From a virus: a stretch of DNA of 33,699 nucleotides. Below, one piece after another: positions 20,964 through 22,776 of the stretch. The notes beneath the pieces were generated by a model that saw nothing but the letters and a program-made list of their open reading frames with translations, was not told the origin of the DNA and searched no databases. Position numbers and translations under genes: made by a program. Position 1 is the stretch's first letter. Each line of letters opens with the position of its first letter. The stretch lies in IMG/VR virus record IMGVR_UViG_3300020197_000087, positions 1 through 33,699 of that record. One strand, given 5' to 3'.

Positions 20964-21002
20964 GTGTAGCATCATGCTGCATCATGCTGCATCATGCTAC
21001 AC
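20964..21002. promoter_or_regulatory. Iterated palindromic operator O1
   Basis: Three tandem GCATCATGCT units with a 10-bp period, bounded by GTGTAGCAT and its inverted partner ATGCTACAC. TACACT at both ends could serve as -10 for divergent promoters. A two-unit version (GCAACATGCW) lies at 27474-27502. The 10-bp period puts each unit on the same helix face, as expected for ribbon-helix-helix binding. Confidence 0.8.
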
Positions 21003-21044
21003 TCTGGGCTATGGGGGATCTCTCCCCCTCCTGCTCACCCGCTC

Positions 21045-21180
21045 ATGGATCACATGGCGCGAATTGTTCGCGGCGGCTCTTGGTTCAACGATCCTCTCGA
21101 CTGCCGCTCGGCTTACCGCTTCAGTAGCCACCCGGTCGTCCGCAATCAGGCCAGGGGTTTTCGCGTCTGTTGCCTCTCCC
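21045..21180 (+). repeat. Variable cassette 1 (upstream, in frame with the FGE gene)
   Basis: An ATG at 21045 opens a frame reading Arg-Ile-Val-Arg-Gly-Gly-Ser-Trp-Phe-Asn-Asp-Pro-Leu-Asp-Cys-Arg-Ser-Ala, later Gly-Phe-Arg-Val-Cys-Cys. This is the C-terminal variable strand set of an FGE-sulfatase/C-type-lectin fold. No stop separates it from the FGE core start at 21213, so a 532-residue fusion is possible. It is most like cassette 8 (22645-22776), sharing most conserved bases. No hairpin or slippery heptamer accompanies it. Confidence 0.75.
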
Positions 21181-21212
21181 AGTCACGCCAAATCTTCACT
21201 CGCATTTCCCCC

Positions 21213-22643
21213 ATGACTGACTTTTCCAACCTGATTTCCATGGTTCAGGTCCCCGCCGGATCGTTCCTGATGGGCTCGCCGCCAGATGAGAAGGGGCGCT
21301 ACGCCGATGAAGGACCCCAGCATGAGGTGACGCTGGAGAGCTTCCTCATGGGCCGCACCCCTATCACACAAGCGCAGTGGCGGGTGGTGGCAGAGGAGCT
21401 GCCGATGGTGATGGGGGTGCTGAACCCTGATCCGAGTTTGTTTAAGGGCGACGATCGCCCTGTCGAGAAGGTGAGCTGGCACGACGCCGTGGAGTTCTGC
21501 GCCCGCCTGAGCCAGGCCACAGGTCGCGCCTTTTCCCTCCCTAGCGAAGCCCAGTGGGAATATGCCTGCCGAGCAGGCACTACCACGCCGTTTCCCTTCG
21601 GGGAAACGATCAGCCCGGAGCACGCCAACTTCAACTCAAATGCCACCACGCCCGTGGGGCAGTACTCCGCCAATGCCTGGGGCCTTCAGGACATGAACGG
21701 AAATGTCTGGGAATGGTGCAAAGATCACTGGCACGACTCGTACAACGGGTCTCCTGCCGATGGGAGCGCTTGGGAAGACTGCCTGGGAAAGCTTTCAGGC
21801 GCCTCAGGCGCGGCGGCTCCTGGTTCGACCTACACCGCCTCTGCCGCTCGGCCTGCCGGCGCAGCTACCACCCGGCCAACCTCATTGACTTCGTTGGGTT
21901 CCGCGTCTCTGTCTGTTGCCCAGGATGACACCCTGGGAAAGTACGTAGGCGCCTCCTTCGCGGCGGCTCCTGGTTCTACGAGCCCAACAACTGCCGCTCG
22001 GCCTCCCGGCTCAGGTGCCGCCCGGCCGTCCTCAGCGGCAACGTTGGGTTCCGCGTCTGCTGCCCAGGATGACTGCCTGGGAAAGACACCAGGAGCCTTT
22101 TGCGCGGCGGCTCCTGGTTCTACGAGCCCAACAACTGCCGCTCGGCCTCCCGGCTCAGGTGCCGCCCGGCCGTCCTCAGCGGCAACGTTGGGTTCCGCGT
22201 CTGCTGCCCAGGATGACTGCCTGGGAAAGTCCTCAGGCGCCTTTTGCGCGGCGGCTCCTGGTACGGCGGCACTCGCGACTGCCGCGCCGCCTACCGGGAC
22301 AGCGATCACCCGGCCAACATCGGCGCCAACGTTGGGTTCCGCGTCTGTGTCTGTTTCCCAGGATGACTGCCTGGGAAAGCCCTCAGGCGCCGCCTCTTGC
22401 GCGGCGGCTCTTGGTTCTGCGGTCCTCTCGACTGCCGCTCGGCTTCCCGCTACGGGTTTCACCCGGACAACCGCGATCGGGGCTTGGGGTTCCGCGTCTG
22501 TGTCTGTTTCCCAGGATGAACGCATCCTGCGCGGCGGCTCCTGGGAATTCGGCGCTCCCCGCTTCTGCCGCTCGGCCTTCCGGAACGGCGCCCACCCGGC
22601 CGACATCGACGCCAATGTTGGGTTCCGCGTCTGCCTCTCCTGA
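21213..22643 (+). CDS. FGE-sulfatase / C-type-lectin-fold variable protein
   Basis: A 476-residue frame from ATG 21213; the frame is open upstream to 20994. Residues 1-189 are a formylglycine-generating-enzyme-like core: Val-Pro-Ala-Gly-Ser-Phe-Leu-Met-Gly-Ser, Pro-Ile-Thr-Gln-Ala-Gln-Trp, Pro-Val-Glu-Lys-Val-Ser-Trp, Leu-Pro-Ser-Glu-Ala-Gln-Trp-Glu-Tyr-Ala-Cys-Arg-Ala-Gly and Asp-Met-Asn-Gly-Asn-Val-Trp-Glu-Trp. Residues 190-433 are a repetitive Ala/Pro/Ser/Thr linker made by reading cassettes 2-6 out of frame. Residues 434-476 are cassette 7 in frame (Arg-Ile-Leu-Arg-Gly-Gly-Ser-Trp). DGR target proteins use this fold to bind ligands. Slippage at GGGAAAG sites would give shorter forms ending in cassettes 2-6. 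Confidence 0.8.
   Translation: MTDFSNLISMVQVPAGSFLMGSPPDEKGRYADEGPQHEVTLESFLMGRTPITQAQWRVVAEELPMVMGVLNPDPSLFKGDDRPVEKVSWHDAVEFCARLSQATGRAFSLPSEAQWEYACRAGTTTPFPFGETISPEHANFNSNATTPVGQYSANAWGLQDMNGNVWEWCKDHWHDSYNGSPADGSAWEDCLGKLSGASGAAAPGSTYTASAARPAGAATTRPTSLTSLGSASLSVAQDDTLGKYVGASFAAAPGSTSPTTAARPPGSGAARPSSAATLGSASAAQDDCLGKTPGAFCAAAPGSTSPTTAARPPGSGAARPSSAATLGSASAAQDDCLGKSSGAFCAAAPGTAALATAAPPTGTAITRPTSAPTLGSASVSVSQDDCLGKPSGAASCAAALGSAVLSTAARLPATGFTRTTAIGAWGSASVSVSQDERILRGGSWEFGAPRFCRSAFRNGAHPADIDANVGFRVCLS
21812..21928 (+). repeat. Variable cassette 2 (-1 frame)
   Basis: In the -1 frame this reads Gly-Gly-Ser-Trp-Phe-Asp-Leu-His-Arg-Leu-Cys-Arg-Ser-Ala-Cys-Arg, later Val-Gly-Phe-Arg-Val-Ser-Val-Cys-Cys-Pro-Gly-stop. 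The stop is the TGA at 21926-21928. Fused by slippage to the core it would complete a 238-residue protein of normal FGE-domain length. Confidence 0.8.
21962..22072 (+). repeat. Variable cassette 3 (-1 frame)
   Basis: Gly-Gly-Ser-Trp-Phe-Tyr-Glu-Pro-Asn-Asn-Cys-Arg-Ser-Ala-Ser-Arg, ending Val-Gly-Phe-Arg-Val-Cys-Cys-Pro-Gly-stop. It is identical over its full length to cassette 4, 144 bp downstream, which points to a recent tandem duplication. Confidence 0.85.
22106..22216 (+). repeat. Variable cassette 4 (-1 frame, identical to cassette 3)
   Basis: Same sequence as cassette 3 from Gly-Gly-Ser-Trp to the TGA and on through the next GGGAAAG. Only the short stretch between heptamer and GGSW differs (ACACCAGGAGCC in place of TACGTAGGCGCC). 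Confidence 0.85.
22250..22366 (+). repeat. Variable cassette 5 (-1 frame)
   Basis: Gly-Gly-Ser-Trp-Tyr-Gly-Gly-Thr-Arg-Asp-Cys-Arg-Ala-Ala-Tyr-Arg, ending Phe-Arg-Val-Cys-Val-Cys-Phe-Pro-Gly-stop. Here Ser of the Cys-Arg-Ser-Ala motif is Ala. Confidence 0.8.
22403..22519 (+). repeat. Variable cassette 6 (-1 frame)
   Basis: Gly-Gly-Ser-Trp-Phe-Cys-Gly-Pro-Leu-Asp-Cys-Arg-Ser-Ala-Ser-Arg, ending Gly-Phe-Arg-Val-Cys-Val-Cys-Phe-Pro-Gly-stop. The heptamer-to-GGSW gap is one codon longer than in cassettes 2-5. Confidence 0.8.
22533..22643 (+). repeat. Variable cassette 7 (frame 0, terminal)
   Basis: Arg-Ile-Leu-Arg-Gly-Gly-Ser-Trp-Glu-Phe-Gly-Ala-Pro-Arg-Phe-Cys-Arg-Ser-Ala-Phe-Arg, ending Val-Gly-Phe-Arg-Val-Cys-Leu-Ser-stop. 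It is in the same frame as the core, so it is the default C-terminus if no slippage occurs. Confidence 0.85.
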
Positions 22644-22644
22644 T

Positions 22645-22776
22645 ATGCGAATCCTGCGCGGCGGCTCTTGGTTCGACGATCCTCGCTACTGCCGCTCGGC
22701 TTACCGCGACAGGGCCCACCCGGACGCCCACCTTCAGAACAGGGGTTTCCGCGTCTGTTGCCTCCCCAGGACTTGA
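22645..22776 (+). CDS. Variable cassette 8, separate small frame
   Basis: A 43-residue frame from ATG 22645 (two bases after the preceding TGA): Met-Arg-Ile-Leu-Arg-Gly-Gly-Ser-Trp-Phe-Asp-Asp-Pro-Arg-Tyr-Cys-Arg-Ser-Ala-Tyr, ending Gly-Phe-Arg-Val-Cys-Cys-Leu-Pro-Arg-Thr. Alone it is too short to fold as the lectin-like domain. It may be a reserve cassette, a remnant, or translated by re-initiation. Its conserved positions match cassette 1 best, and variable positions again tend to be NNC codons. Confidence 0.5.
   Translation: MRILRGGSWFDDPRYCRSAYRDRAHPDAHLQNRGFRVCCLPRT

Follow-up and report, generated by a model that had tools for sequence, protein, structure and literature searches.

A conserved fork of reading frames before hypervariable cassettes in phage genes of the formylglycine-generating enzyme fold, and its possible use in -1 frameshifting

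The 33,699-bp virus record IMGVR_UViG_3300020197_000087 from IMG/VR, the whole of which is referred to here as the window, contains a gene whose core belongs to the formylglycine-generating enzyme (FGE)-sulfatase/C-type-lectin-like fold and is followed by a series of short, hypervariable modules, here called cassettes. Counted from the core start at 21213, the 476-residue frame-0 product matches Pfam PF03781 (E 1.3e-51). Between the core and the last in-frame cassette the gene meets five GGGAAAG heptamers, each phased as G-GGA-AAG, and each of which may be an exit into the -1 frame. The features of the locus are as follows.

21054..21212, plus strand: cassette 1, a variable module with its own ATG, upstream of the core and in frame with it (a permuted position)
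21213..21782, plus strand: FGE-sulfatase/C-type-lectin-like core without its own last strands (Pfam PF03781; core alignment)
21785..21791, plus strand: putative slippery heptamer G-GGA-AAG, exit 1, without a Shine-Dalgarno (SD)-like element at 6-17 nt
21809..21928, plus strand: cassette 2, in the -1 frame after exit 1, ending in a TGA stop
21922..21925, plus strand: SD-like AGGA ahead of exit 2, with equivalents starting at 22066, 22210 and 22360
21935..21941, plus strand: putative slippery heptamer, exit 2
21959..22072, plus strand: cassette 3, -1 frame, its R-to-V part identical to that of cassette 4
22079..22085, plus strand: putative slippery heptamer, exit 3
22103..22216, plus strand: cassette 4, -1 frame
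22223..22229, plus strand: putative slippery heptamer, exit 4
22247..22366, plus strand: cassette 5, -1 frame
22373..22379, plus strand: putative slippery heptamer, exit 5
22400..22519, plus strand: cassette 6, -1 frame
22530..22643, plus strand: cassette 7, frame 0, reached with no slip
22645..22776, plus strand: cassette 8, +1 frame, with its own ATG directly past the cassette 7 stop (TGATATG)

An original prediction, made from the window sequence alone, had proposed that these heptamers form an array of optional -1 frameshift exits, and its description of the array is borne out in most respects. The heptamers lie in phase with the core at 21785, 21935, 22079, 22223 and 22373; past each of them the -1 reading is a cassette of the form R-GGSW...C-R-[SA]-A...GFRV, which stops at the TGA within GGATGA (21926-21928, 22070-22072, 22214-22216, 22364-22366 and 22517-22519); and frame 0, uninterrupted from 20994 to 22643, crosses the array to arrive at cassette 7 in frame. 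The distance from the heptamer start to the Arg codon of the cassette, given as 21-24 nt, is 24 nt for exits 1-4 but 27 nt for exit 5. Tandem Repeats Finder reports a single array at 21773-22519 with a period of 144 and units of 144 or 150 bp. The five sites are therefore copies of one repeat and count as one event, not as five independent observations, and it is the relatives of the gene that decide the question. The openness of frame 0 was likewise set aside as evidence of frameshifting, being largely automatic: the variable codons are of the form NNC, which cannot be a stop in its own frame and which appears as NCN or CNN in the other two, NCN being the frame-0 reading. A small sign of constraint within the window is that CCTGGGAAAG is invariant across the five units, with none of the following four columns conserved. 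An exact 19-base search with the window's own unit returned no match. Just upstream of the locus, at 20969-20998, lie three perfect copies of GCATCATGCT, possibly operator sites.

Relatives of the core were collected from viral and cellular loci, giving 219 distinct copies, in which the first cassette lies in frame 0 in 166, in -1 in 19 and in +1 in two; close to the remaining cores the motif found no cassette. Three of the 19 were left out, namely L152 and L257, in which frame 0 stops soon after the core, and L176, whose contig is that of the second copy of L007; the exact copies L003, L022 and L189 were counted once. There remain 16 sequence-distinct gene copies in 15 IMG/VR phage records, and these share a simple fork: the core ends in a Trp and is followed by an SD-like element, a heptamer-like site, a cassette A that lies in -1 and has a stop of its own, and a cassette B in frame 0. 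Cassette A is in -1, with frame 0 open across it, in all 16, and B stands in frame 0 in 15, the other copy (L001) having a -1 cassette as the only one found and no B. The spacing from A to B is 124, 127 or 130 nt, in other words 1 mod 3 in 15 of 15. L007 carries two fork genes in tandem. L008 and L010 appear to come from one phage (100% identity over 4,820 bp), with what seems to be an extra unit in one of them, such that there are at most 15 independent cases; the stretches L008 5001-5900 and L010 47-900 are told apart by a cassette unit of about 127 nt, which shifts another cassette into frame 0. A first pattern scan yielded 39 stretches, from which came two new forks or fork copies, L195 and a copy of L009 named L189; among the cellular loci, the motif scan brought up no fork. 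The fork-bearing phages appear to infect cyanobacteria. As to the two +1 cases, in L247 the first cassette follows a stop and has its own ATG, and in L129 (5001-5573) frame 0 is open for 564 nt, which may be a +1 counterpart or a frameshift mutation.

Counting the window once with its 16 relatives, to make 17 forks, the heptamer-like site is G-GGA-AAG in 10, A-AAA-AAG at the matching place in one (L033) and G-GGG-GAG in six. In 11 of the 17 forks, GGGAAAG or AAAAAAG stands in phase no more than 60 nt ahead of a cassette, as against one of 164 single-cassette copies and none of the 76 viral ones; taking any X_XXZ_ZZN heptamer, the counts are 11/17 and 10/164. These 11 forks, the window among them, combine an in-phase X_XXZ_ZZN heptamer with an open -1 frame. 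In E. coli, the motifs that promote -1 shifts most efficiently are CCCAAAG, GGGAAAG and AAAAAAG (PMC4066793; also PMC5009743). The original prediction had held that homologous arrays with the heptamer absent or randomly phased would speak against it; this is not what is found for these 11, although the GGGGGAG of the other six lacks the A-site part. As to codon usage, Gly is encoded by GGA in only 20 of the 274 Gly codons of the fork cores and yet in 10 of 10 Leu-Gly-Lys fork sites, with the window counted once. Moreover, the amino acids vary in L033 and in the ERLGK linkers of L008, L010 and L023, and the site is kept. When AAAAAAG or CCCAAAG ahead of a cassette start was scanned for, 107 sites came up, and the only fork among them was on the contig of L033 itself.

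An upstream SD-like element at 6-17 nt stimulates the -1 shift in E. coli (PMC4066793). By this rule, all 16 relatives carry such an element. Measured over 21 nt from the last Trp of the core, an SD-like sequence is present in 16 of 16 forks and in 15 of the 49 viral single-cassette genes in which that Trp can be recognised, and the GGAGG or GGAGAGG form in 15/16 against 6/49. The AGGA proposed as a stimulator in the window is in range at exits 2-5, 10 nt ahead of the second base of the heptamer, but exit 1 is without one. The GC-rich downstream stems, also proposed as stimulators, exist but are not unusually stable (z -0.71 at exit 1). The mean z of the 17 forks is about -1.06 (-2.86 to 0.07), compared with -0.40 in 76 viral single-cassette genes, a comparison that covers plain stems, and the stems were not counted as evidence of frameshifting.

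What the original prediction overlooked is the nature of the cassettes themselves: by their pattern of substitution they belong to a diversity-generating retroelement (DGR), as its variable regions. The window and 26 further loci provide 43 distinct cassettes of canonical length, with conserved residues fixed by the search motif. Of the 12 codons that vary fully, nine have an entropy of 1.57 bits or more at each of their first two positions and of no more than 0.63 at the third, which is nearly always C; in the others, codons 8, 10 and 19, the third position has 0.93-1.43. The codons are in this respect of the AAC type known from DGRs, the first two bases being free and the third fixed. A template core was deduced from the cassette columns and sought in 400 cyanobacterial genomes, drawn evenly from the larger family of a Synechococcus that has close relatives of the gene. 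The first pattern had no match in viral contigs, and a longer one matched a single genome of the 400, G307, with zero mismatches (L277, at G307:C157:1058-1108), next to a reverse transcriptase and on the same contig as an FGE core. When the 43 cassettes are compared with this template, 637 of 1075 adenines and 350 of 3182 other positions are changed; with the 14 codons fixed by the search motif removed, the counts are 637/1075 and 243/1376. The cassette of L026 differs at 11 of 25 adenines and at none of 74 other positions. Such concentration of substitutions at the adenines of a template repeat is the mark of a DGR variable region. The six window cassettes fit this template less well (93 of 150 adenines, 57 of 192 others), and their template is therefore probably a different one.

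As to the source of the diversification, a search of 53 distinct virus records, the window included, gave one match to a reverse transcriptase, in the record of L059, which has a single-cassette gene; the window and the 15 fork records, all of them fragments, gave none. In other words, a reverse transcriptase and template within the same element as the target, as in a self-contained DGR, were not found in these records. Reverse transcriptase is present in six of eight related cyanobacterial genomes, and the simplest reading would be that a DGR of the host diversifies the phage cassettes in trans, as the match at L277 suggests that it may, with the reservation that the G307 template contig might itself be a mobile element.

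With regard to the protein, the predicted fold of L011, a single-cassette relative (predicted local distance difference test score, pLDDT, 88.9), resembles PvdO, formylglycine-generating enzymes and the Treponema DGR variable protein TvpA, and 2y3c is among the structure and sequence matches. The cassette contributes the last strands of the fold. The AlphaFold2 model of L007 gives its cassette B the same order of helix and strands as the single cassette of L011 (residues 231-270, pLDDT 70-94), and leaves the linker before it disordered, with residues 186-225 mostly below 50.

Taken together, the order of parts, their phase and the accompanying signals suggest that the fork serves -1 frameshifting, such that one mRNA carries alternative hypervariable C-termini, to which a probability of roughly 0.68 is assigned. 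The gene would then be a DGR target having several copies of its hypervariable C-terminal module, between which the choice is made during translation. Ribosomes would translate the FGE-fold core and a fraction of them would slip by -1 at the SD-assisted heptamer directly past it, read the next cassette, which completes the fold, and stop, giving a product that ends with A. Unslipped ribosomes would stay in frame 0, in which the DNA of A reads as a flexible linker rich in Thr, Ala, Pro and Ser, and proceed to cassette B. The usual form would be a two-way fork, with A by -1 and B by frame 0, from which the window would have amplified the heptamer-plus-cassette unit to five successive exits; for a slip probability p, the share of the n-th exit would be p(1-p)^(n-1). 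In the window this could give the up to six isoforms of the original prediction, were all five exits used. The reading presupposes that ribosomes do slip here, that the two products are able to fold and bind, and that an outside retroelement supplies their diversity in trans. The proposal of -1 exits that feed variable C-termini gains from the 16 relatives, which keep the fork, its phase, the SD-like element and mostly a top-ranked heptamer, and loses at the GGGGGAG of the six forks.

A more far-reaching version, for which the odds are put at somewhat below even, is that of a translational shufflon coupled to a retroelement. Here a stack of modules behind one core would be diversified in trans by the DGR of the cyanobacterial host, and serial -1 exits would display a graded mix of binding variants from one mRNA, the NNC codons never being stops in any frame.

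Several observations weigh against frameshifting at the fork. The G-GGG-GAG of six forks (L005, L009, L015, L018, L050 and L195), which have Leu-Gly-Glu at this place, is not an X_XXZ_ZZN heptamer: re-pairing is possible in the P-site, and in the A-site only by means of a central G-U. In E. coli, a clear shift was not seen with G_GG.G, a related tetramer (PMC4066793). The A cassettes of these forks are no more decayed than those of the others. Intact A cassettes are weak evidence of translation, because DGR homing renews cassettes and NNC codons cannot be stops, and they were discarded on this account. The stop after A was discarded too; it and the indels in multiples of three would also be seen if only B were made. 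At exit 1 of the window there is just a GGAG, which at 19 nt falls beyond the 6-17 nt range. Compared with single-cassette genes, the forks have downstream structure of slightly higher stability at best, and it is not clearly unusual. The AAAAAAG fork is a single case, internal starts are possible in those forks with GTG in the -1 frame before A, and the fork copies are related, such that the enrichment counts are non-independent and a single origin with subsequent exchange is possible.

Three other explanations were weighed. The -1 cassettes might be an untranslated reserve of DNA, from which unequal recombination of the 127-nt unit (1 mod 3) swaps the cassette in frame 0. The L008/L010 pair appears to capture such an event, an extra unit in one of two otherwise identical sequences, with frame 0 of L008 reading a copy of A and the B cassette of L010 lying there in +1; in the core tree, furthermore, the single-cassette L011 nests with the forks of L007, and GGGGGAG forks may not slip. 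The difference between L008 and L010 could, however, be an assembly artefact, and a reserve leaves unexplained why top-ranked heptamers and SD-like elements are enriched at forks, why L033 has A-AAA-AAG and why the sole cassette found in L001 is in -1. This explanation is considered unlikely.

A good deal less likely is that the fork is passive debris of duplication, its Ser-Leu-Gly-Lys linker and its frame having come without any role from one ancestor. The five sites of the window are indeed one tandem repeat, phase and SD-like element could be inherited, and Leu-Gly-Lys/Glu could be kept as protein sequence. Well-supported branches of the core tree force just two changes of the fork label, as debris would have it, but the most parsimonious count is six; and the exclusive use of GGA at the Leu-Gly-Lys sites counted, together with the linkers in L033, L008, L010 and L023 that change residues yet keep the site, is not what inheritance without a role would give. 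Least probable, and very much so, is a split fold, in which internal or coupled re-initiation would yield each cassette as a short protein of its own that then joins the core. Cassettes 1 and 8 do have an ATG of their own, the core of L247 and of L257 runs into a stop and its cassettes start at an ATG, a -1 GTG occurs within 15 codons before A in L002, both copies of L007, L005 and L050, and the -1 frame of L033 holds an ATG before A, followed by a stop. No start codon at this place is common to all forks, however, six of the 17 have no ATG, GTG or TTG there (L009, L015, L018, L019, L020 and L195), and the ATG within the GGATGA of the window opens the +1 frame, not -1.

Beyond the fork, the module takes several positions around the core, as is seen from cassettes 1 and 8 of the window, which the original prediction did not mention, and from N-terminal and split modules of related phages. 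In a permuted layout, N-terminal variable cassettes are fused to a core that stops right past its linker (L032 4700-5557, L034 4698-5555, L025 and L029), and the arrangement of cassette 1 at 21054-21212 resembles these four. In a split layout, in L247 and L257, the core closes with a stop and the cassettes follow as separate open reading frames (ORFs), each with its own ATG. The window gene sits between a primase/helicase and a dCTP deaminase, at a distance from the structural genes, and the PHROG that it matches best carries the annotation 'kinase', in category other; the suggestion that its products are receptor-binding isoforms finds no support in this replication setting. Neighbourhoods of the relatives were read from ORF lists only. 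A GGGAAAC heptamer had also been noted in a tail chaperone of the same phage. The minus-strand ORF 752-282 does have an in-phase G-GGA-AAC at 357, after which the -1 frame is open for 119 codons to the record end, a chaperone-like layout as in the lambda G/GT tail chaperones, but its protein has no match in PHROGs.

At any one time, a DGR target normally displays a single variant of its binding surface. Were frameshifting at the fork confirmed, one gene would express two or more diversified surfaces simultaneously, their ratio being governed by the slip rate; this would hedge the risk of hypermutation, and recoding would have the unusual use of choosing between interchangeable modules. The fork may also link a host retroelement to phage diversity.

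Shufflons and invertible tail-fibre genes similarly join a constant part to alternative C-terminal modules, with the DNA switched by a site-specific recombinase. The arrangement of parts is alike here, whereas the choice proposed is translational. No match to Phage_integrase (tyrosine integrase) was found in 15 records, these being the window and 14 of the 15 fork records, possibly incomplete, and serine recombinases were not searched; a site-specific recombinase of the kind shufflons require was thus not found, as far as tyrosine integrases in these 15 records are concerned. Known examples of -1 frameshifting include dnaX, lambda G/GT and IS elements, each with one fixed alternative product. 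Unlike these, the shift here would pick among interchangeable hypervariable modules, with up to five exits. The signals are nevertheless the same, since G_GGA_AAG and A_AAA_AAG with an upstream SD-like element are used in bacterial and phage -1 frameshifting (PMC4066793; PMC5009743).

The cassettes, for their part, compare well with DGR variable proteins of the FGE/C-type-lectin fold, such as Treponema TvpA and cyanobacterial variable proteins, which have the same fold, a C-terminal variable region and, likewise, substitutions at the adenines of a template beside the reverse transcriptase. Remote DGR targets are known in cyanobacteria (PMC7517822). Known DGRs with multiple variable regions mostly have one such region per ORF, with three tandem FGE paralogues in one ORF reported once (PMC3521204); in contrast, several variable-region modules here trail one core, in different frames. 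No report of frameshifting that selects between DGR variable regions was found in the open-licence literature. Frameshifting and a DGR do occur in one phage in Quimbyvirus, where it is the reverse transcriptase gene that is proposed to be frameshifted (PMC8008677); the fork described here concerns the variable protein. Both mechanisms are already known, and it is their combination that would be new.
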